The notes beneath the pieces were generated by a model, which saw nothing but the letters and a program-made list of their open reading frames with translations, did no database searches and was not told the DNA's origin. Positions 5,273 to 45,641 of a DNA stretch of 64,000 nt are shown piece after piece (position 1 is the stretch's first letter; each line of letters starts with the position of its first letter). The DNA lies in the NCBI RefSeq assembly GCF_030408755.1, contig NZ_CP047209.1, positions 248,001 to 312,000 on the forward strand. The letters are read 5' to 3'. The translations under genes and the position numbers were made by a program. The stretch is from Corynebacterium felinum (GTDB lineage: Bacteria > Actinomycetota > Actinomycetes > Mycobacteriales > Mycobacteriaceae).

Positions 5273-5358
5273 CGGCTCAGCTGTGTAGCCCTTAGTATCC
5301 CTAAGGCATCTCCAGCATCGTAGGCTCGCAAGGATTGGTCACTTGAAGGTGATCAGTT

Positions 5359-5395
5359 CTTTCGGGCCTACTTTGCGTTGTGCCTGAAAGTTTTT
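5359..5395 (+). terminator. Rho-independent terminator after the small membrane gene
   Basis: The stem CTTTCGGGC / GCCTGAAAG (9 pairs with one G-U) closes a 14-base loop and is followed by five T. It probably ends the sdh transcript. Confidence 0.6.
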
Positions 5396-5406
5396 AGGTT
5401 GTGTTC

Positions 5407-5538
5407 GTGAAAAAATCTACAGTCATTATCCTCATCTTGATTAGTGTGATCACTTTTATTTCGGCGATCCAGCTGGGTCAGTTGGCGTGGCAGTTGTGGC
5501 AGGAAGAGCGTATGCCTGTTGTTGGGGTCGAGGTGTAG
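5407..5538 (+). CDS. Putative 43-residue single-span membrane protein
   Basis: A short reading frame starts at GTG 5407, with an AGG eight bases upstream (a GTG at 5401 is in frame but too close to it). It encodes two lysines, a hydrophobic stretch of about 18 residues (STVIILILISVITFISA) and a short acidic amphipathic tail ending GVEV. The Lys-Lys-plus-helix form is typical of small bacterial membrane proteins. It fills an otherwise empty 330-base gap between the terminator and the DUF445 gene. No family is known to me, and coding status rests on composition alone. Confidence 0.42.
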   Translation: MKKSTVIILILISVITFISAIQLGQLAWQLWQEERMPVVGVEV

Positions 5539-5604
5539 TTTTCACGATGTCAGATCTCGTGTTTGCGCAGTGCTGTGACTGTGGTTTTCGGCAATAATAG
5601 AAGA

Positions 5605-6897
5605 ATGACTCCTACTCGTTTAGCGGTTCCTGGTCCGTCTCCAGAAATGGAAGCTTTCCGCCGTAAAGAATTACGAAAATATAAAAGCCTTGCTACTGGG
5701 CTGCTTATTTTTGCAGCCGTTATTTTTTTGGCCTGCCGGTGGTATGAAACTTATGTAGACCCAGATGCAACGTGGGTGGGGTTTGTTCGCGCGGCCTCTG
5801 AAGCTGGCATGGTTGGTGGTTTAGCGGACTGGTTCGCTGTTACGGCGTTGTTTCGCTATCCGTTGGGTTTAAAGATTCCGCATACGGCGATTATTCGCCG
5901 TAAGAAGGATCAGGTGGGGGAGGCGTTAAGTGGTTTCGTGGGGGAGAATTTTCTTAATGCTGAGCTGATTACTGAGAAGGTTTCTCAAGCTCAGGTTCCT
6001 GAGAAGATTGCTCAGTGGTTGGTTGTGGAAGAAAATGCTAAGAAAGTGTCGCGTGAGGTTGGTAAGCTTGCTTCCAATGCGATTCAGGCGCTTGATCCGC
6101 AGGATGCGGAGGCATTGATTCGCCATCAGCTTGTCGATAAGCTCGCCCAGCCTGAGTGGGCGCCTCCTGTGGGCCGAATTTTAGATCAGCTCATCGACGG
6201 TGGTCATGTGGAGCCTATTGTTGATCAGTTGATTGAGTGGGGGCATAAGAAGGCTTTGTCTAGTGAAGCGTTTATTGTGCGCTTGCTGGATGAGCGTGCC
6301 CCTTCGTGGGCGCCGAAGTTCATTAATGAGCTTGTTGGCGATAAGGTGTACCGCGAGTTGATTACGTGGACGGAGTCTGTGTGTGCGGATAAGAATCATG
6401 AGGCGCGACAGGCTATCCGGAATTTCTTTGTGAAGTTTGCGCATGATTTGCAGCATGATCCGGTGATGATCGCGAAGGTTGAGGATTTCAAGGCTGATGT
6501 GATGGCGTCGAAGCCTGTTCATGATGCTGCAGGTATGCTGTGGAAGTCGGCGCGTGCAAATATTGTTGCGGCTTGTGAGGATCCTTCATCGATGCTTCGT
6601 GTGAAGATCGTTGAGTTGTGCATGCAGTGGGGTTCGCGGCTTAATTCGGATGAGCAGATGCGTGACAAGCTCGATCAGCGTATTACGGGTTGGGCTGCGT
6701 TTTTAGCGGATAATTATGCTGATGAGGTGACGAGCATTATTTCTGAGACGATTGAGCGTTGGGATGCGAACGAAGCAAGCGAGAAGATTGAGCTGATGGT
6801 TGGTAAAGATTTGCAGTACATCCGGGTCAATGGCACTGTTGTGGGTGCGTTGGCAGGACTGGTCATTTACTCGGTTTCTCATCTATTGTTTGGTTAA
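5605..6897 (+). CDS. DUF445 family membrane-anchored protein
   Basis: This is a protein of 430 residues. A hydrophobic segment at about residues 25-45 (LATGLLIFAAVIFLACRWYE) is followed by GGLADWFAVTALFRYPLG, the hallmark of DUF445 (YheB/YjiN-type) proteins, then a long charged helical domain and a C-terminal hydrophobic helix (VVGALAGLVIYSVSHLLF). The family is membrane-associated and of unknown function. The ATG at 5605 was chosen over a TTG at 5563 because the conserved part begins shortly after it, although the ribosome site is weak. The DUF2516 gene follows after 28 bases, suggesting co-transcription. Confidence 0.85.
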   Translation: MTPTRLAVPGPSPEMEAFRRKELRKYKSLATGLLIFAAVIFLACRWYETYVDPDATWVGFVRAASEAGMVGGLADWFAVTALFRYPLGLKIPHTAIIRRKKDQVGEALSGFVGENFLNAELITEKVSQAQVPEKIAQWLVVEENAKKVSREVGKLASNAIQALDPQDAEALIRHQLVDKLAQPEWAPPVGRILDQLIDGGHVEPIVDQLIEWGHKKALSSEAFIVRLLDERAPSWAPKFINELVGDKVYRELITWTESVCADKNHEARQAIRNFFVKFAHDLQHDPVMIAKVEDFKADVMASKPVHDAAGMLWKSARANIVAACEDPSSMLRVKIVELCMQWGSRLNSDEQMRDKLDQRITGWAAFLADNYADEVTSIISETIERWDANEASEKIELMVGKDLQYIRVNGTVVGALAGLVIYSVSHLLFG

Positions 6898-6925
6898 TGT
6901 ACTTGCGAGTGAAGGATTTTCTACC

Positions 6926-7228
6926 ATGATGCTAGATGCTATTGATCCACTGTCTATTTTTAGGTTGGCGGTTTTGGTGTTGTATCTCGCAATTGCAGTT
7001 TTTGGTGTTGCTGGTGCGATCACAGCGCTGATGACCCGCGATGATGCGTTTGATGCGGCTGACCGTAAGCCGAAGTTGGTGTGGGTGGCGATCTTGATTG
7101 GTTCGGCTATTGCGGTGAGTTTGAATGTGTATTTCCTTTCGTGGATCGGCATTGTGATGATCGGTTTGTACTGGTTTGATGTGCGTCCGCAGATCAGGAA
7201 TATTCTTAACGGCAATTACGGCTGGTAA
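6926..7228 (+). CDS. DUF2516 family small membrane protein
   Basis: This 100-residue product has two to three hydrophobic segments (about 8-30, 48-66 and 67-80) and ends in WFDVRPQIRNILNGNYGW, typical of actinobacterial DUF2516 proteins. The function is unknown. It starts at ATG 6926 (an earlier in-frame start runs into the DUF445 gene). Its stop overlaps the next gene's ATG as TAATG at 7228, so it is translationally coupled to the DeoC-like gene. Confidence 0.8.
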   Translation: MMLDAIDPLSIFRLAVLVLYLAIAVFGVAGAITALMTRDDAFDAADRKPKLVWVAILIGSAIAVSLNVYFLSWIGIVMIGLYWFDVRPQIRNILNGNYGW

Positions 7229-7743
7229 TGAAGATTTATTCAACTGCGCTGGGCAGGTGCGTTGATGCTCAGCAGGTGCGTGCTCTTTCGACACCCGTGT
7301 GTGTTCCTGCGAACTGGGTTGAGGTGGCAGGCTTCGGGTGTGCTACTGTTGTGGGTTTTCCGACAGGGCAGCATCACGCTCTTGTGAAGGCTTCTGAGGC
7401 GCGGCTGGCGGTGAGTCAGGGTGCGGAGCTTGTTGTTGTGGTTCCGGCTCCGCATGCGGTGTTGGGTGATGATCATGCGCTGATGCTGGAGCTTGTGACT
7501 ATTCGTGAGGCTGTGGCGTATCCTACGACGCTCGTTGTGGTTTTTGATGCTGAGCTTATCGACGTCGACCGCATGCGGTCCTGTGCGCGACTGGCCCGCA
7601 CGTGTGGTGTGGATGCGTTGATGTCGAGCGTGAGTGAGTCGGATCCGGCCAGTGATGCGATTTTGGCGGAAGAATTGCCTGTGGTGGGGATTGGCATGGA
7701 AAAGCCCGAGCGCGCCGTTGTGTGGCTGCGCACGGGCTTGTAA
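7228..7743 (+). CDS. DeoC-like protein lacking the Schiff-base lysine (probable pseudoenzyme)
   Basis: The 171 residues align with deoxyribose-phosphate aldolase, which is normally about 220 or more. Seen: VVGFPTGQHHALVKASEA at 41-58 corresponds to the VVGFPLG...KAxEA region of DeoC, and GAELVVVVPAPHAVLGDD to the GAdEiDmV strand. The catalytic signature VKTSTG is replaced by ALMSSVSES (about 130-138), with Met132 where the Schiff-base lysine belongs. The VDMV aspartate is Val, and the GFKPAGG lysine region reads GIGMEKPERA. Aldolase activity is therefore unlikely. The reading frame is intact and coupled to DUF2516, so a retained non-catalytic role or recent decay are both possible. Confidence 0.7.
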   Translation: MKIYSTALGRCVDAQQVRALSTPVCVPANWVEVAGFGCATVVGFPTGQHHALVKASEARLAVSQGAELVVVVPAPHAVLGDDHALMLELVTIREAVAYPTTLVVVFDAELIDVDRMRSCARLARTCGVDALMSSVSESDPASDAILAEELPVVGIGMEKPERAVVWLRTGL

Positions 7744-7747
7744 GTGT

Positions 7748-37098: not shown

Positions 37099-38118
37099 AT
37101 GAACAACGCTTCTTTTCGCCCACATAACCTGATTCGCCGCCCACGCCGCCTGCGCACTACCCCCGCCATGCGGGCGCTGGTCGCGGAAACTACGCTGAGC
37201 CCAAAGGACCTGATTTATCCGCTGTTCGTTGCGGATGGGATCGATAGCCCTAAAGAAATTTCCTCCATGCCCGGCCAATACCAGCACACCCTCGACTCGC
37301 TGAAAGAGATTGTGGGCCGGGCTATCGACTTGGGCATCACCTGCGTTGATCTTTTTGGTGTGCCGCGGGCAGAAGATAAGGATGCCACGGGATCTCACGC
37401 GTGTGCACAGCACGGTATCCTCAACCGTGCTATTGCCATGCTGCGTGCCGAATACGGCGAGAGCATCCTGATCATGGCAGACACCTGCCTCGATGAATTT
37501 ACCGACCACGGGCATTGCGGTGTTGTTTCCACCAACCAGTGGGGCGAGTTGATCGTCGATAATGATGCAACCATCCAGCACTACCAGCGCATGGCAGTAG
37601 CTCAAGCGCGCGCAGGCGCTCACATCGTTAGCCCCTCAGGGATGATGGACGGACAAATCTTGGCAATCCGACAAGCCCTCGATGAGGCAGGATTCACCGA
37701 CGTTGCCATCATGGCGTATTCCGCGAAGTACGCCTCCGCGTTCTATGGTCCATTCCGTGACGCAGTGGGATCCTCCCTCGAAGGTGACCGCCGCACCTAC
37801 CAGCAAGACCCCGCAAACATCCGCGAATCCCTGCTCGAAGTTGAACTCGACATTCAGGAAGGTGCCGATTTCGTCATGGTCAAACCAGCCATGCCCTATC
37901 TCGACGTCTTAAGCCGGGTAGCTGATTCTGTTACCGTGCCCGTGGCCGCCTACCAAGTTTCTGGCGAGTACGCCATGTTGTGTGCCGCCAGCGCACACGG
38001 GTGGCTTGATCGCAGCGCAGTGATGATGGAATCGCTCATCTCCATTAAACGCGCAGGTGCCTCCCAGATTTTGACCTACTTTGCCTTGGAGGCAGCAGAA
38101 ATCTTGAAAACCCCCTAG
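37099..38118 (+). CDS. hemB: Delta-aminolevulinic acid dehydratase (porphobilinogen synthase)
   Basis: Condenses two aminolevulinates to porphobilinogen. 339 residues. Catalytic lysines lie at Lys210 in MAYSAKYASAFYG and Lys262 in MVKPAMPYLDV. The metal-site stretch ADTCLDEFTDHGHCGVV keeps acidic residues where zinc-type enzymes have the full cysteine triad, pointing to a magnesium-type enzyme. AAAGGA precedes the ATG. It lies 43 bases after hemD. Confidence 0.96.
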   Translation: MNNASFRPHNLIRRPRRLRTTPAMRALVAETTLSPKDLIYPLFVADGIDSPKEISSMPGQYQHTLDSLKEIVGRAIDLGITCVDLFGVPRAEDKDATGSHACAQHGILNRAIAMLRAEYGESILIMADTCLDEFTDHGHCGVVSTNQWGELIVDNDATIQHYQRMAVAQARAGAHIVSPSGMMDGQILAIRQALDEAGFTDVAIMAYSAKYASAFYGPFRDAVGSSLEGDRRTYQQDPANIRESLLEVELDIQEGADFVMVKPAMPYLDVLSRVADSVTVPVAAYQVSGEYAMLCAASAHGWLDRSAVMMESLISIKRAGASQILTYFALEAAEILKTP

Positions 38119-38204: not shown

Positions 38205-38762
38205 GTGGGGAAGGAAGCAATGAAGGAAAAGGGCACTGCGCCAGAATCGGTAGTCTTGGCTTTCAAAGTCTGGGTTGCAGTTCTTATTCTCGAAATTGTC
38301 CACCAGATCACCTCGGTGCTCACTGCGCTCATGGATCGGGAAAATACCACCGCAACCATCATCGAGCAGTACAAACAAAGCCAAGCAGCGGTGATTCCTA
38401 GCGAAACTTTCGTCTCCACAGTCGTGATCGGTAGCAGCATCTTCGTCGGCTGCGTCGCCTTGGCCATTATTGGCATTGTGCTCTGGCTCGCCCGCTCCTA
38501 TGTCAGCGCCGGGCCCCGCGCTGGGACTGCACGAAAAGTACTGACCTATTTCGGCGTATTTTTCGCTTTGCGCTGCATCTTTGCCTTTAAAGCCCCCACG
38601 CTCTCCATGGTGCCCATCGGTGTGCAGGCTTTTAACGGCTCTGTGGAAATCGCAGTAGGCGTTGCGGCTGTGGTGGGAACGATCCTTGTATCCAAGCCCG
38701 ATTCTTTAGAATGGGTGGGAGATAACCTCAGTGCGAAAAAACCGAAGAAACCTCAACGCTAA
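38205..38762 (+). CDS. Four-helix membrane protein in the haem cluster
   Basis: GTG 38205 is chosen because GAGAGGAG ends about six bases before it; ATG 38220 in the same frame is the alternative. The product of about 185 residues has hydrophobic segments near 20-38, 70-95, 115-132 and 145-165 and a basic tail (LSAKKPKKPQR). There is no signal peptide or recognised family. It lies between hemB and the degenerate P-type ATPase-like gene. A weak hairpin (38771-38793) with a T-rich end follows. A link to haem or metal handling is only positional. Confidence 0.72.
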   Translation: MGKEAMKEKGTAPESVVLAFKVWVAVLILEIVHQITSVLTALMDRENTTATIIEQYKQSQAAVIPSETFVSTVVIGSSIFVGCVALAIIGIVLWLARSYVSAGPRAGTARKVLTYFGVFFALRCIFAFKAPTLSMVPIGVQAFNGSVEIAVGVAAVVGTILVSKPDSLEWVGDNLSAKKPKKPQR

Positions 38763-38922: not shown

Positions 38923-41559
38923 ATGATTGACCCTAAGGAATTTCACGCCACCGAATCGAAGGTTCGCGAAGCGATTGAGACTGCTAAGAATGCAGCGCGT
39001 CGCGTCGGTATCGACGCTACCCCGAAGTCGAAATTTTTGGATCCTGACGAAGCTGCCACCGAGGCCATGCATATTGGCCGGACTTCCTTTGCGTTTGAGC
39101 TCAAGGGTTTGGAAAATGCCGCAGCTGTTGGCGAAATAGAGGAGGCTTTGTCGGCGTTAAACGGGGTCAGTGTCCGTATCGTCTATAGTTCCTCGATGGC
39201 GTGGATTACGGCAAGTCGTTCAACTGATATCACGATGATTGAGGAAGTGTTTTCTCGTTTCGGGATTACCGCAACGTTGTCGGACTCGTCGTTGCGGCGT
39301 CGTTTAGCGTGGTCGGATGTTGAGGAAGGGCGGTATAACCGCTCTCACCAGCGTCATCGTCGGCGCAGGCGTCGCGAGTTGTCGATGCCCAGTGCTTTGC
39401 GACGCCAGGCTGCGGAGGAGTCGAAAGCACTTGAGCTTGCCCGCCGCGAAGGGTTTTTGGATGGTACTTTTCGCACGCTGGAGCATAAAGACCCCACGGA
39501 TGTGCTGTTTACCGCGCGCACACTGATCACGCCGTTGCGTCTGATTGTCACGGTGTTGTTTACCATCCCCGTGATCGCTATTAGTTATATTCCTTCATTG
39601 CAGTTTGATTACTGGCAGTGGGTGCTTGCCGCTTTGGCGTTTCCGGTGGTCACTTATGGTGCTTACCCCTTCCACCGCGCAACTATTGGTGGTTTCCGCC
39701 GCGGGATGTCGGCGTTGGATTCGGCGAGTTCTTTGGCCATCATGGTGGCGTATTTTTACAGTCTGGCGGTGATGGTTTACACCGAGGCGGGGGACCCACA
39801 GTATCGGGTGACTTCCGAATTGGTGGCCATTGATCCGATGGCTTTTGAAAGCGGGGCGCTGTTTTTTGATGTTGCCTGCGCGATGACCTTGTTTTTGTTG
39901 GGTGGCCGGTTGTTGTCGCGCAAGACGCGGAAAAATCTTGTCGATGAGCTGGCCGATTGCAAACCTTTGCCGCAGTCGATGGCAACCCGCGTGGTGAAAT
40001 CTCGCAAGACTGGTGAGGTGACGGAGAAAAACATTCATGTGCATAAGCTGAATGTTGGCGACGATATCGTGGTTCCCCCATATGGGTTAATTCCTGTTGA
40101 TGGACAAGTGGTGGGTGGTTCCTCCCATGTTGATGGCCGCGCCTTGGGCATTGGTGAGCATGAGGTGAAGGTTAATTCCAAGGTGTATGCCGGCTGCATG
40201 AATGGTGCGAATACGCTGAAAATTCGTGTGCTGTCAACAGGCCACCGCACGTGGTTGGCTGCGTTGAGCCGCTGGGTGGATAAATCGTCGTTGAATCAGA
40301 ATCATTCGGATGCGCTGGCGACGAAGTCCGCCTCGGTTTTGGTGCCGATTGCTTTGGCCATTGCCATGTTGGACTTTACGCTGTGGGCGTTGATTACCAA
40401 CAATATTAATCAGGCGATTGCCACATCTTTGGCGGTGTTGGGGTGTGTGGCGCCGGTGGCGTTGGCTGTTTCGTCTTCGGTGGCGATGCGCCAGGGTATT
40501 GAGATGGCTGCGCGCCACGGTGTGTTGATTCGTGATGCGGATACGGTGCGGACGTTGGATTTTGTCGACACCATTATTTTCAATCGTGTGGGCGCGTTGT
40601 CGGTGGGGGAGATGACGGTGGAGTCTGTGACTGCGGATCGCGGTGAGAACCCTGATTTGGTGTTGCGGGTGGCGAGCGCGTTGACCTTAGAGAGTGATCA
40701 TCCTGTTTCGCGTGCGTTGAAGCGGGCGGCGCGTGAGTCTCGTGATGCCTCAACTGATGATACGATCCCGCGTCTGATTGATGTCAGCAATGTTGAGATT
40801 GATGAGAACGGTAGTTTTACGGGTTTGGTGGAAATCCCGCTGCGGGATTCCGATGGGCGCGTGGAATTACGCAATGTGGAGGCTAAATTGTGGCGTCCGC
40901 GCAACCTTTCTGATGTACAGGGCCGTTTGGCTGCAGCGGCTGTGTCGGGGGGTACTCCTTTGGTGGTGCGGTGGAAGGGTAAAGATCGTGGTGTGATCAC
41001 GCTGCATGATGATGCGAAGGACGATGCGACGCGGGCTGTTGCTGATGTGGAACAGTTGGGTATTGAAACCATGATGCTGTCGCGCGATACGTATCCGGTG
41101 GCGCGTCGTTATGGCGATATGGTGGGTGTGTCGCACGTGTTGGCGGGTATCCAGCCGGGACATAAGGCGCAGACGGTGCGTAGTGTGCATAATCATGGTG
41201 CGGTTGTGGCCATGGTGGGTGACGATTCGGTGCGTGAGTGTTTCCGGGTGGCGAACGTGGGCATTTTGGTCGACGCTATGGGAAGTTTGCCGAGTGCTTC
41301 CGCGCTGGAAAATACTCAGGCTGACGTGGTGTTGCTTACTAGCAATACGGAGCCAATTCCATGGTTGTTTAAGGGGGCGCGCCGGTTGAATAAGCTGATT
41401 AGTAGCAATTTGTTCTTGGCGTGGGGTTATAACCTTGTGGCTATTCTCGCCGCCTGTGCGGGTGTGTTGCATCCGATGTTTGCCACTATTTTGATGTTGG
41501 GTTCGTCGTTGGTGATTGAGTCGCGTTCGAGTTTGGCGCGTACCTTCTCCTCCTCCTAG
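38923..41559 (+). CDS. Degenerate P1B-type ATPase-like protein with all catalytic motifs lost
   Basis: 878 residues, full P1B length. Residues 56-120 form a ferredoxin-like HMA domain in which the metal motif MxCxxC is replaced (FELKGLENAAAVGEIEEAL). Eight hydrophobic segments and the actuator, P and N domains follow in normal order. The phosphorylation motif DKTGT is N554-R-V-G-A (in IIFNRVGALSVGE). The transmembrane CPC is A510-P-V in GCVAPVALAVSS. TGD reads SRD, and GDGxND reads G766-DDSVRE. Kept: SDHP-type nucleotide site (591-594), PGHK (745-748). It cannot be a normal metal pump, yet the long frame is intact. It lies between hemB and hemE, hinting at a binding or regulatory role in haem metabolism. 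Confidence 0.82.
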   Translation: MIDPKEFHATESKVREAIETAKNAARRVGIDATPKSKFLDPDEAATEAMHIGRTSFAFELKGLENAAAVGEIEEALSALNGVSVRIVYSSSMAWITASRSTDITMIEEVFSRFGITATLSDSSLRRRLAWSDVEEGRYNRSHQRHRRRRRRELSMPSALRRQAAEESKALELARREGFLDGTFRTLEHKDPTDVLFTARTLITPLRLIVTVLFTIPVIAISYIPSLQFDYWQWVLAALAFPVVTYGAYPFHRATIGGFRRGMSALDSASSLAIMVAYFYSLAVMVYTEAGDPQYRVTSELVAIDPMAFESGALFFDVACAMTLFLLGGRLLSRKTRKNLVDELADCKPLPQSMATRVVKSRKTGEVTEKNIHVHKLNVGDDIVVPPYGLIPVDGQVVGGSSHVDGRALGIGEHEVKVNSKVYAGCMNGANTLKIRVLSTGHRTWLAALSRWVDKSSLNQNHSDALATKSASVLVPIALAIAMLDFTLWALITNNINQAIATSLAVLGCVAPVALAVSSSVAMRQGIEMAARHGVLIRDADTVRTLDFVDTIIFNRVGALSVGEMTVESVTADRGENPDLVLRVASALTLESDHPVSRALKRAARESRDASTDDTIPRLIDVSNVEIDENGSFTGLVEIPLRDSDGRVELRNVEAKLWRPRNLSDVQGRLAAAAVSGGTPLVVRWKGKDRGVITLHDDAKDDATRAVADVEQLGIETMMLSRDTYPVARRYGDMVGVSHVLAGIQPGHKAQTVRSVHNHGAVVAMVGDDSVRECFRVANVGILVDAMGSLPSASALENTQADVVLLTSNTEPIPWLFKGARRLNKLISSNLFLAWGYNLVAILAACAGVLHPMFATILMLGSSLVIESRSSLARTFSSS

Positions 41560-41666
41560 GCGTAGTTGGGGGCAGGGAGGAGTTGGCCTGTGAGGGGGTA
41601 GTCGGGTTCCTCCAATTAGCCCACGCTTACTTTCCAAAGGTATGAACCTCTGTCATACTTTTGGCT

Positions 41667-42743
41667 ATGTTAGCTCCTATCCTGCCTTCGCCCTCGTCGT
41701 CTCCTGCTGATTCCCCTAAGCCTTTGTTGCAGGCTATCGCTGGGGTGAAACCTACTCGTCGCCCTGTCTGGTTTATGCGCCAGGCGGGGCGTTCGCTTCC
41801 GGAATATCGCCGGGTGCGTGAGGGGATTGGCATGTTGGATTCTTGTTTCATGCCGGAGTTGTTGGCGGAGATTACGTTGCAGCCGGTGCGTCGCCATGAT
41901 GTGGATGCGGCGATTTTGTTCTCCGACATCGTTGTTCCGCTCAAGGCTGCAGGTGTTGGGGTGGAGATTGTTGCGGGCAGGGGGCCGGTGATGGAGCGTG
42001 CCTGCAGTAGTGCGGATGAGTGTGCCTCTGTGCCCATTCTTGAGGGGGATATCCCAGAACTTACTGAGGGGATTGGGCTGATTCGGCAGGGTTTGACGGC
42101 ATCACAGACGTTGATCGGTTTCGCGGGTGCGCCGTTTACGTTGGCGAGTTATTTGGTCGAGGGTGGCCCTTCGAAGAATCATGAGAAGACGAAGACGATG
42201 ATGCATGCGAATCCGCATGCGTGGCATACGTTGATGCAGCGTTTAACTCCGACGATTATTCGTTTTTTGGAGATTCAAATTGCCGCTGGCGTCGAGGTTG
42301 TGCAGCTGTTTGATTCCTGGGTTGGTTTTATCACTGAGCGCGACTATCGCGAGCATGTGTTGCCGTATTCGACGCAGATTTTGGATGCGGTGGCGCAGTT
42401 GGGGGTGCCGAGGATTCACTTCGGCGTGGGCACGGGCGAGTTGCTAGGTGCGATGAGTGAAGCTGGCAGTGAGGTGATGGGTGTTGATTGGCGGGTTCCA
42501 CTTGATGTTGCTGCCACGCGCATGGTGACTCCGCGGGTGCTGCAGGGCAATTTGGATCCTGCGCTGTTGTTTGCCGGCGAGTCGGTTGTGCGTGATGAGG
42601 TTGCGCGTATTTGTGCGGAAGCTGATCGTGCGTGCGCTTCTGGTGATGCGTTGGGTCATATTTTTAATCTTGGGCATGGGGTTTTGCCGCATACTGATCC
42701 GGATGCGATTACCCGGGCTGTTGAGTGTGTGCACCAGCACTAG
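41667..42743 (+). CDS. hemE: Uroporphyrinogen decarboxylase
   Basis: Decarboxylates uroporphyrinogen III to coproporphyrinogen III. 358 residues from ATG 41667; a CATACT box seven bases before it suggests a leaderless message. Signatures: RPVWFMRQAGRSLPEYR, AAILFSDIVVPLKAAG, FAGAPFTLASYLVEGG, IHFGVGTGELLGAM and the C-terminal FNLGHGVLPHTDPD. It begins the second haem gene block after the ATPase-like gene. Confidence 0.97.
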   Translation: MLAPILPSPSSSPADSPKPLLQAIAGVKPTRRPVWFMRQAGRSLPEYRRVREGIGMLDSCFMPELLAEITLQPVRRHDVDAAILFSDIVVPLKAAGVGVEIVAGRGPVMERACSSADECASVPILEGDIPELTEGIGLIRQGLTASQTLIGFAGAPFTLASYLVEGGPSKNHEKTKTMMHANPHAWHTLMQRLTPTIIRFLEIQIAAGVEVVQLFDSWVGFITERDYREHVLPYSTQILDAVAQLGVPRIHFGVGTGELLGAMSEAGSEVMGVDWRVPLDVAATRMVTPRVLQGNLDPALLFAGESVVRDEVARICAEADRACASGDALGHIFNLGHGVLPHTDPDAITRAVECVHQH

Positions 42744-42846: not shown

Positions 42847-44256
42847 GTGCGCATTGCCATCGTTGGTGCAGGTTTGGCGGGATTGACTACTGCGTGGGAG
42901 ATCCGTGCGGGTGCACCTGAGGCTGAGATTGATGTGTTTGAGGCGACGGATCGTATTGGTGGGAAGTTGTTTACGGTTCCGTTTGCTTCCGGCCCGACTG
43001 ATATGGGTGCTGAGGCTTATCTTGCGTTCCGTGAGGATGCGACGGAGTTTTTCACCACGCTGGGTTTGAAAGATGCGCTGCGTGCTCCTTCGGGTTTGCC
43101 GTCTGCTTTGTATTCCCAGGGGCAGTTGCATGCGCTTCCGTCGCACACGGTGATGGGCATTCCGGCGTCGAGTGCTGGTTTAGAGGGGCTTATCGACGCC
43201 GACACAGCTGCCCGTATTGATTCCGAATCCGACGCGCCGGGTATTGAGTGGACCTCGGGTGAGGCGGATGTGTCTTTGGGTGCGTTGGTGCGTTCCCGTT
43301 ATGGCGATCAGGTGGTTGATCGTGTGGTTTCGGCGTTGCAGGGGGGCGTGTATTCGTCTTTGGCTGATGATTTGGGTGTTCGGGCGACGGTGCCTGTGTT
43401 GGCGCAGGAGTTTGATCGTATGGCTGATGCGGGGCAGAAGGTGTCGTTGTCGACGGCGGTGCGTGCGATTGTGGATCGTCGGGCGGCGTCGTCTGAGAAT
43501 GCGACATCTGGTGAGCAGTATCGTCCGCAGCTTTTTAGTACGTTTGCTGGTGGTTATGCGCAGTTGTATGAGGAGTTGGCGGAGCAGTCGAAGGCGCGTA
43601 TTCATATTGATGCTTTTGTGTCGGGGATTGTGCGGAAGAATTCCGGTTTTAGTTTGAAGGGTGCTGGTGAGGGCATTTATGACCGGGTGGTGGTGACCAC
43701 TCCTGCGCCTACGACTGCGATGTTGCTGAAAGATGTGGCGGCTGCTGCGAGCGCTGAGTTGAAGAAGGTGCGTTTGGCGTCGAGTGTGGTTGTGGGCATG
43801 AAGTTTGCTCATGATGAGGGGTTGCCGGATCATTCGGGAATTTTGGTGGCCTGTGATGAGCCGGATGTGAAGGTGAAGGCGTTGACGTTTAGCTCGAAGA
43901 AGTGGCCGCATATTGGCCAGCGTGGTGGTGCGTTGGTGCGTGCGTCGTTTGGCCGTTTTGGGGATGAGCAGATTACGCGTGCGGAGGAGGATGAGCTTGT
44001 CGATCGCGCGTTGGATGATCTGCAAGCGATCACTGGCTTTGATGGTCGTGCAGCGGGGTTGGATGAGATTTTTGTTCAGCGCTGGTTTGGTGGTTTGCCG
44101 GTGTATTCGCCAGAACATCTCGTCACTGTGTCACGTGTGATGGCGGAGTTGGATAAGGTTGATGGTGTGTTTGCTACCGGCTCGTGGGCTGGTGGGGTGG
44201 GGGTTCCTGCGGTGATTGCGCATGCGCGTGCTGTTGGCCGCGCGGTTATTGCTTAG
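42847..44256 (+). CDS. hemY: Coproporphyrinogen/protoporphyrinogen oxidase (HemY family)
   Basis: FAD oxidase of 469 residues; in actinobacteria HemY-type enzymes oxidise coproporphyrinogen III to coproporphyrin III in the coproporphyrin-dependent pathway. The N-terminus MRIAIVGAGLAGLTTAWEI is the FAD dinucleotide loop, followed by DRIGGKLFT and DMGAEAYLAF. GVFATGSWAGGVGVPAVIAH is the C-terminal FAD-binding segment. The start is GTG 42847 with an AGAAAGGCG site. The later enzymes of the path (ferrochelatase, HemQ) are not in the window. Confidence 0.93.
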   Translation: MRIAIVGAGLAGLTTAWEIRAGAPEAEIDVFEATDRIGGKLFTVPFASGPTDMGAEAYLAFREDATEFFTTLGLKDALRAPSGLPSALYSQGQLHALPSHTVMGIPASSAGLEGLIDADTAARIDSESDAPGIEWTSGEADVSLGALVRSRYGDQVVDRVVSALQGGVYSSLADDLGVRATVPVLAQEFDRMADAGQKVSLSTAVRAIVDRRAASSENATSGEQYRPQLFSTFAGGYAQLYEELAEQSKARIHIDAFVSGIVRKNSGFSLKGAGEGIYDRVVVTTPAPTTAMLLKDVAAAASAELKKVRLASSVVVGMKFAHDEGLPDHSGILVACDEPDVKVKALTFSSKKWPHIGQRGGALVRASFGRFGDEQITRAEEDELVDRALDDLQAITGFDGRAAGLDEIFVQRWFGGLPVYSPEHLVTVSRVMAELDKVDGVFATGSWAGGVGVPAVIAHARAVGRAVIA

Positions 44257-44330: not shown

Positions 44331-45641
44331 ATGATGGTTTCTGCGCAGAATACTTCTGTATCGGAGCAGTTGATGCAGCGTGCTCAGGTGAGCATTCCTG
44401 GCGGTGTGAATTCTCCGGTGCGTGCCTTTGGTTCCGTGGGTGGTCATGCGCGCTTTATTGAGCGGGCGTATGGCAGCACGCTTGTCGACGTCGACGGCAA
44501 CAAGTACGTTGATTTGGTCAATTCGTGGGGGCCCATGTTGTTGGGCAATGCTCACCCCGAGGTGCTCGCTGCGGTGAATGAGGCCATGGCTCAGGGCTTG
44601 TCTTTTGGTGCGCCGACAAAGGCGGAGATTGAGCTTGCAGAGATGATTTGTGCACGGACCTCGGTGGAGCAGGTGCGTATGGTCAATTCCGGTACGGAAG
44701 CTACTATGTCGGCGGTGCGTTTGGCGCGTGGTTTTACTTCGCGTGCGAAGGTTCTGAAGTTTGAGGGCTGCTATCACGGGCATGTGGATGCGTTGTTGGC
44801 CTCTGCTGGTTCGGGTGTGGCCACGTTTGCGTTGCCGGATTCCCCTGGTGTGACGGGTGCGTCGGCGGCGGATACGATTGTTGTCCCCTATAACGATTAT
44901 GCGGCTGTGCAGCAGGCTTTTGCCGACTACCCCGACCAGATTGCTTGTGTGATTACTGAGGCTGCTGCCGGAAATATGGGTGCGGTGGCACCGCAGAATC
45001 AGTTCAATCAGCGGCTGAAGGATCTATGCCATGCGCATGGCGCGTTGCTGATTATTGATGAGGTGATGACCGGTTTCAGGACTTCCTATTCGGGCTGGTT
45101 TGGTGTTGATGGTGTTGCGGGCGATCTGACGACCTTCGGCAAGGTCATTTCGGGTGGTCTTCCAGCTGCTGCCTTTGGTGGCCGCGCCGATATTATGGCT
45201 CATCTTGCACCTTCAGGTCCGGTCTATCAGGCGGGCACGTTGTCGGGTAATCCGGTGGCGATGGCCGCTGGTAAGAAATCTTTGGAATTGGCTACTCATG
45301 CTGTGTATGACACGGTTGCGAAAAATGCAGATCTGTTGGCCTCGTTGATTTCGCAGGCGCTGAGCAGGGAAGGGGTGGTGCACCATATTCAGCGTGCCGC
45401 CACGATGCTTAGTATTCGTTTTGCGGAAGGTGAGGGGAAGAATTTTGCGGAGATGAAGGCTGCTGAGACTTTCCGTTTCGCCCCATTTTTCCATGAGCTT
45501 TTGCGTGGTGGTGTGTATGCTCCGCCGAGTGTGTTTGAAACGTGGTTTGTGTCTGCTGCGCTGAGTGATGATGATTTTGCCACGATTGAAAAGGCCTTGG
45601 TTCCGGCAGCCCAGGCTGCGGCTCGTGCGCGGCAGGATTAG
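44331..45641 (+). CDS. hemL: Glutamate-1-semialdehyde 2,1-aminomutase
   Basis: PLP enzyme making 5-aminolevulinate from glutamate-1-semialdehyde, the product of HemA. 436 residues: [56 protein letters not shown], and the PLP lysine Lys271 in [18 protein letters not shown]. It starts ATG-ATG at 44331/44334. It is the third gene of the hemE-hemY-hemL block, followed after 150 bases by the phosphatase and cytochrome c genes. Confidence 0.97.

Follow-up and report, generated by a model that had tools for sequence, protein, structure and literature searches.

The window (the whole stretch of Corynebacterium felinum DNA analysed here, 64,000 nucleotides) carries a cluster of haem synthesis genes, and between its hemB and hemE lies a gene for a protein resembling the heavy-metal pumping P1B-type ATPases (Table 1). 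The preliminary description had placed the gene correctly, with the right coordinates, protein length and unbroken frame. The Pfam matches of the neighbouring genes (GlutR, porphobilinogen deaminase, HEM4, ALAD, URO-D, amine oxidoreductase and aminotransferase) agree with the location in a haem gene cluster.

Table 1. Positions of the genes, domains and motifs discussed. Fractions are counts among the 130 family genomes; the last four rows give positions within loci of other genomes.
Feature	Position	Strand	Remarks
hemB	37099..38118	+	Pfam ALAD 1.9e-140
tm4, small membrane protein	38205..38762	+	start codon uncertain; LIC_13387 family 8.1e-05, 22.3 bits, below the cut-off of 33
pseudo-P1B-ATPase gene	38923..41559	+	878 aa, frame open; Pfam E1-E2_ATPase 8.6e-24; AF2 model
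HMA-like ferredoxin-fold domain without CxxC	39073..39282	+	residues 51-120; predicted, secondary structure of the model
Arg-rich helical linker	39283..39507	+	residues 121-195; low conservation; helices in the model
Cys319 in M2	39877..39879	+	130/130 in the family; Ala in 12/12 canonical rows
A-domain loop at the canonical TGE site, drifted	40144..40158	+	residues 409 and 410 variable
APV replacing the CPC metal-site motif	40450..40458	+	residues 510-512; Pro511 130/130
NRVGA replacing DKTGT	40582..40596	+	residues 554-558; N554, R555, G557 each 130/130
His593, N-domain HP histidine, kept	40699..40701	+	120/130
SRDTY replacing TGDxx	41080..41094	+	residues 720-724; R721, D722, Y724 each 130/130
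Lys748, HAD motif III lysine, kept	41164..41166	+	130/130
GDDSVRE replacing GDGxND	41218..41238	+	residues 766-772; D767 (motif IV first Asp) 120/130
Tyr836-Asn837 in M5, kept	41428..41433	+	130/130 and 127/130
Met858 to Ser862 in M6, kept	41494..41508	+	M858 128/130, S862 118/130
hemE	41661..42743	+	Pfam URO-D 4.5e-117
hemY-type oxidoreductase	42847..44256	+	Pfam Amino_oxidase 1.5e-24; named by position and family
hemL-type aminotransferase	44331..45641	+	Pfam Aminotran_3 3.7e-78; named by position and family
hemD region, locus L329	7199-8950		locus turned to the gene's strand
hemD region, locus L330	7132-8883		locus turned to the gene's strand
second P-type ATPase gene, locus L267 (G103)	5320-7473		between pseudo-ATPase and hemE
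second P-type ATPase gene, locus L268 (G031)	5567-7744		between pseudo-ATPase and hemE

In profile searches the protein scores above the cut-off for Pfam PF00122 (84.5 bits, cut-off 28.1) and passes the general NCBIfam model TIGR01494 (113.9 bits, cut-off 62.3), and it stays below the cut-off of the more specific ATPase-IB_hvy model TIGR01525 (282.7 bits, cut-off 346.25). The AF2 model and its structural matches support the P-type ATPase fold with eight membrane helices and A, P and N domains, as proposed in the preliminary description; these matches were found with Foldseek, and VIA-align served as a second look at the Foldseek rows and excludes nothing. The HMA fold named there is likewise consistent with the model, in which residues 53-119 are predicted in the HMA-like order beta-alpha-beta-beta-alpha-beta; a Pfam search gave no HMA match in the protein. 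The linker that follows has a mean pairwise column identity of 0.30 in the 130 genomes aligned. At three loci (L210, L211 and L212, from genomes G025, G054 and G196) the match to the window protein starts only near residue 184-188 and the open frame is about 827 residues long, which suggests that the HMA-like part has diverged or become shorter there.

The motifs were counted in the gene translated from 130 distinct genomes out of 185 carriers, with 12 canonical proteins as comparison rows; the names of motifs and sites are those that we take to apply to these pumps. The 55 carriers outside the count include G190, where the gene meets a contig end (its protein is 98% identical to that of the window), and G236, where a frameshift lies in a genome that is 77% complete. 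DKTGT, GDGxND and CxxC occur in none of the 130 genomes, nor does M4 contain CPC, CPH or SPC in any of them; CPV is found there in two, and residue 510 is Ala in 113, Gly in 14, Cys in 2 and Ser in 1. The A domain is without TGE[SPA] in all 130 genomes (three have it elsewhere in the protein), the most frequent residues in the loop at this site being Gly (58), Asp (32), Asn (12) and Ser (10) at position 409 and Arg (29), His (28) and Ile (16) at position 410. At N554, R555, G557, R721, D722, Y724 and K748, the canonical rows have Asp, Lys, Gly, Gly, Asp, a variable residue and Lys, respectively. Residue 720, in HAD motif II, is Ser or Thr in 123 of the 130 genomes, and residue 770 is Val in 101. 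In the N domain of the window protein the HP pair lies at 593-594 (Pro594 in 97/130), and the glycine loop for ATP, with canonical Gly at aligned positions 629 and 631, is variable in the family and appears lost. No family-specific invariant His was found.

What these counts describe is replacement and not erosion: the P-domain pocket has taken on a new, invariant arrangement (N-R-x-G, (S/T)-R-D-x-Y and K), and the A-domain loop has drifted. The codons of the fixed residues vary, with five different codons each for Arg555 and Arg721, so it is the residue that is held and not the DNA. The change of Asp to Asn and the loss of the TGE loop rule out the usual phosphorylation cycle. The preliminary description had read NRVGA, APV, SRD (residues 720-722) and the missing MxCxxC correctly, and it also recognized GDDSVRE, which spans 766-772 and not 766-771. 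Its wording that every catalytic motif is erased holds for the phosphorylated Asp with its Lys, for the metal-site motif and the TGE loop, and for the second half of motif IV, all of which are replaced, but goes too far for Ser/Thr720, Asp722, Lys748, Asp767 and His593, which are mostly kept. Compared with CopA-type Cu+-ATPases (P1B-1; AfCopA 7r0g, LpCopA 3rfu), the family is without their DKTGT, CPC, TGE, GDGxND and CxxC and has the new invariant Asn-Arg, Arg-Asp-x-Tyr and Cys319.

Among the best 120 of 234 matches, the 36 nearest relatives (41-72% identity, from Corynebacterium where the source is named) stand clear of the canonical pumps (615 vs. 278 bits). None of the 37 proteins formed by these and the window protein contains DKTGT, CPC, GDGxND or CxxC, and three canonical proteins retain all four. 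In public records several of the dead proteins (P0011, P0014, P0018, P0027 and P0032) are called heavy-metal, cation-transporting or copper-exporting P-type ATPases; the sequence speaks against these names.

Selection on the gene was estimated by the Nei-Gojobori method with a custom script, from pairs of at least 80% identity and with dS of 0.05-1.2. The median dN/dS was 0.106 (range 0.015-0.252; 90 pairs from 64 genomes), with domain medians from 0.083 to 0.137. Between the window genome and its nearest relative, G190, dN was 0.0035 and dS 0.069 over 500 codons. The low dN/dS, together with the absence of DKTGT and CPC from all relatives read, speaks for a maintained protein, and the presence of an intact relative with the same replacements in 129 other genomes means that neither a chance open reading frame nor a sequencing error is involved. 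The earlier suggestion of a maintained pseudo-transporter is borne out by both of the comparisons it had called for, the search for intact orthologues in the genus and the dN/dS estimate.

The family is carried by 185 of the 242 Corynebacterium genomes, and 57 have only canonical P-type matches; the two sets were separated by hand from the best E-values (1e-125 or better vs. 1e-37 to 1e-77). A tree built from 19 family members together with 13 canonical ATPases places the family in one clade (support 100). The clade has a long stem and falls within actinobacterial Cu-type ATPases, grouping with three canonical proteins at support 92. A search at the level of the bacterial family (401 genomes) gave 2.1e-90 as the best match outside Corynebacterium, and this protein and three more were canonical pumps with all motifs. 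At the class level (394 genomes of 137 genera), only two genomes, both of Corynebacterium, had matches at 1e-92 or better. The pseudo-ATPase was thus found only in Corynebacterium, with few candidates scored per genome and cut-offs that could miss a very divergent dead relative. On a HemE tree, built quickly from this one gene and with at least one genome duplicated (G117), the presence and absence of the gene needs five changes and the earliest branch (G168, G208) is without it; one gain followed by several losses fits this pattern, which does not prove it. A relative 49% identical to the window protein is encoded directly before hemE in G064, which we take to be C. glutamicum ATCC 13032, so that a relative in C. 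glutamicum is very probable. Two related genomes have a second P-type ATPase gene, with DKTGT, CPH and a His-rich N-terminus, between the pseudo-ATPase gene and hemE (Table 1).

The surroundings of the gene are conserved as well. In 44 carriers with flanking sequence, hemB and tm4 were each found upstream in 42 and hemE downstream in 38. Of the six without hemE, G190 and G189 come close to a contig end, and in the remaining four hemL takes its place. These four belong to a set of 13 genomes in which the pseudo-ATPase gene is followed by hemL with no hemE beside it and hemE is located elsewhere (G194, G157, G213, G226, G087, G021, G241, G050, G065, G018, G119, G007 and G136); for G194, G213 and G087 no tm4 was detected at the locus. 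The association is thus with the cluster and does not depend on hemE alone. According to the available part of one report, HrrA, a haem regulator of C. glutamicum, binds immediately upstream of hemE (PMC7337898). With such a site there, the pseudo-ATPase gene and hemE could be transcribed separately.

The small membrane protein encoded upstream had been proposed as a client of the pseudo-ATPase. Of 56 loci without the pseudo-ATPase gene, 52 have tm4 between hemB and hemE by tblastn (56 of the 57 non-carriers were checked, G074 being left out, and L192 and L195 have no hemB upstream). An obligate partnership of the two proteins is therefore rejected, and the role of obligate chaperone is unsupported. 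A search with the tm4 protein returned four proteins: that of the window, one at 88% identity and two at 30-31%. After tm4, 47 of 55 non-carrier loci (three genomes counted twice) have a second small membrane gene, mostly of 150-185 aa, with membrane stretches of the small proteins taken from a custom hydropathy scan. The same gene lies between tm4 and the pseudo-ATPase gene in 26 of 49 carrier loci (some genomes twice; examples of the gene are found at L148, L161, L024 and L144), and it is absent from the window. No positive association with the pseudo-ATPase gene was seen for haem oxygenase PF01126 (18/34 carriers, 30/42 non-carriers) or HtaA PF04213 (16/34 and 22/42) in a hand tally uncorrected for relatedness.

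Three genomes that are 99-100% complete (G111, G186 and G223) contain no hemE, no hemA match at 1e-10 and no hemL orthologue; the fourth genome without hemE, G189, is only 53% complete. The three genomes (loci L328, L329 and L330) retain hemD with a longer fused N-terminal part, a shortened hemY, tm4 and a second small membrane gene, the pseudo-ATPase gene with its NRxG and TRDxY, and genes for ferrochelatase and a HemQ-type protein. The 20 kb locus of G186 and G223 also lacks hemB and hemC, with hardly any gap between hemD and tm4. The three strains look unable to start haem synthesis and are perhaps able to finish it. Between them the pseudo-ATPase gene has dN/dS values of 0.084, 0.081 and 0.064, and since the loss of hemA, hemL and hemE is common to all three, their divergence most simply came after that loss. 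Retention of the gene in these genomes fits a role late in the pathway, for example in the use of outside porphyrin. In the three genomes hemD is strongly selected too (dN/dS about 0.04), despite the absence of hemB and hemC from the locus in G186 and G223. As hemD is kept without the hemA/hemL source of its substrate, retention there need not mean porphyrin salvage; its survival without the feeding genes calls for caution in interpreting retention.

Taken together, the pseudo-ATPase is almost certainly a maintained pseudoenzyme that has spread through much of one genus. The conversion from a CopA-like pump would have taken place only once. Its rebuilt P/N pocket would bind an anionic ligand without turnover, either a nucleotide or a carboxylate, for instance from a porphyrin, and Arg721 and Arg555 may stand in for phosphate and Mg2+. 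In P-type ATPases, mutants with Asn for Asp bind ATP without turnover. Since the glycine loop of the N domain seems lost, nucleotide binding is uncertain in this family, and another anionic ligand is as likely. The eight-helix body, perhaps with the one or two small membrane proteins encoded upstream, would then couple the pocket to the membrane, and late tetrapyrroles would be scaffolded or sensed on their way to or from it, in place of any control over early haem synthesis. A haem or metal sensor, one of the functions suggested in the preliminary description, is possible. The role in scaffolding or sensing late tetrapyrroles such as coproporphyrin and haem at the membrane is put forward only tentatively. 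For the whole statement, which joins the pseudoenzyme, its one-time origin, the ligand pocket without turnover and the late-tetrapyrrole role, we would claim slightly less than an even chance.

Of the other readings, a passive or ATP-independent conduit or carrier, moving metal or porphyrin along the kept helices, fares best, and we consider it unlikely. In its favour are residues kept in the membrane helices. The M5 and M6 positions that are mostly kept, Tyr836, Asn837, Met858 and Ser862, are presumably the copper-site ligands of CopA, and the invariant Cys319 in M2 lies near residue 316, which is kept acidic (Asp in 116 genomes, Glu in 14). However, CPC is gone throughout. Leu265, which like Asp266, Cys319, Pro511 and Tyr836 is found in 130/130, stands where canonical pumps have Met, and position 332, aligned to the canonical Glu, is Ser or Thr in 108/130; we take these two positions to be the entry-site Met and entry Glu.

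Regulation of haem synthesis through HemA (GtrR), in the manner of HemX, is less probable again. The position of the gene in the haem cluster suits it. There is also a functional precedent, though no more than that, in HemX of Staphylococcus aureus, an integral membrane protein encoded beside haem genes that lowers GtrR abundance, as described in the part of the paper available (PMC5801465). In the survey given in that part, HemX never occurs without gtrR, whereas the pseudo-ATPase persists, intact and under purifying selection, in the three genomes without detected hemA. Selection in the absence of hemA, hemL and hemE argues against HemX-like control of HemA and weakens the haem-synthesis regulator proposed earlier. 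In addition, the 57 of 242 genomes without the gene all have hemE. The name HemX is absent among the Pfam and NCBIfam matches of the window protein, and these libraries may hold no HemX model.

Pseudoenzymes often regulate their active relatives. The pseudo-ATPase could accordingly act as regulatory partner to an active Cu-ATPase that shares its cell, or provide some other copper-haem link; to this we give marginally less weight than to action on HemA. The family shares its ancestry with Cu-ATPases, and the window genome has exactly one other PF00122 gene, for a CopA with all motifs. That gene, however, lies elsewhere on the chromosome, at 3.10 Mb, and the 57 genomes without the pseudo-ATPase still have canonical P-type matches. 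In C. glutamicum, hemL and cytochrome c maturation genes in the same cluster go up under copper excess, but in the available part of that study hemL and the genes after it are listed, and not the gene before hemE (PMC3140484).

An active transporter with unconventional chemistry, for example one with Asn554 deamidated to Asp, is very improbable: the kept Ser/Thr of motif II, Lys of motif III and first Asp of motif IV would serve it, but Asn554 is never encoded as Asp in the 130 genomes, the TGE loop has drifted and GDGxND is gone. Decay of a pump gene in a single species would explain the lost copper-pump motifs and is refuted by their absence across the genus (0/130 with DKTGT or CPC) and by dN/dS far below 1.

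ERMA and TMEM94 are one and the same human protein. TMEM94 offers a disputed eukaryotic example of a P-type-like protein without the cycle: the text available for one study gives it a P-type-like layout, reports no TGES motif and argues against phosphorylation (PMC12134183). A later paper, likewise available in part, describes an ER Mg2+ ATPase, ERMA, and mentions TMEM94 (PMC13322241). Unlike the corynebacterial family, TMEM94 is eukaryotic and keeps an Asp at the proposed site (D417; PMC12134183). A further comparison is the pseudokinase version of ChrS, described in relation to haem tolerance of C. glutamicum in the accessible part of PMC9491836; it is likewise a dead protein in corynebacterial haem biology, but a histidine kinase variant and thus of another protein family. 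No description of the present family was found in the openly licensed literature, a result that is weak given that scope, and the parts available of PMC12327846, PMC10654040 and PMC6160403 contain nothing on this gene.

In its fullest form the preferred reading, a pseudoenzyme concerned with late tetrapyrroles, is of a P-type ATPase turned receptor or scaffold. Its fixed site without turnover (N-R, R-D-x-Y and K) would sense or carry haem or late porphyrins at the membrane of corynebacteria, perhaps with the adjacent small membrane proteins. It would be kept even where porphyrin synthesis can apparently not be started, in strains that may finish porphyrins from outside. So complete a picture is rather doubtful, if slightly less so than the conduit. 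Strongly selected throughout a genus, these dead P-type ATPases would plainly exemplify the repurposing of a pump. Since C. glutamicum very probably carries a relative, the question is testable in a strain that is safe, tractable and also employed in haem production.
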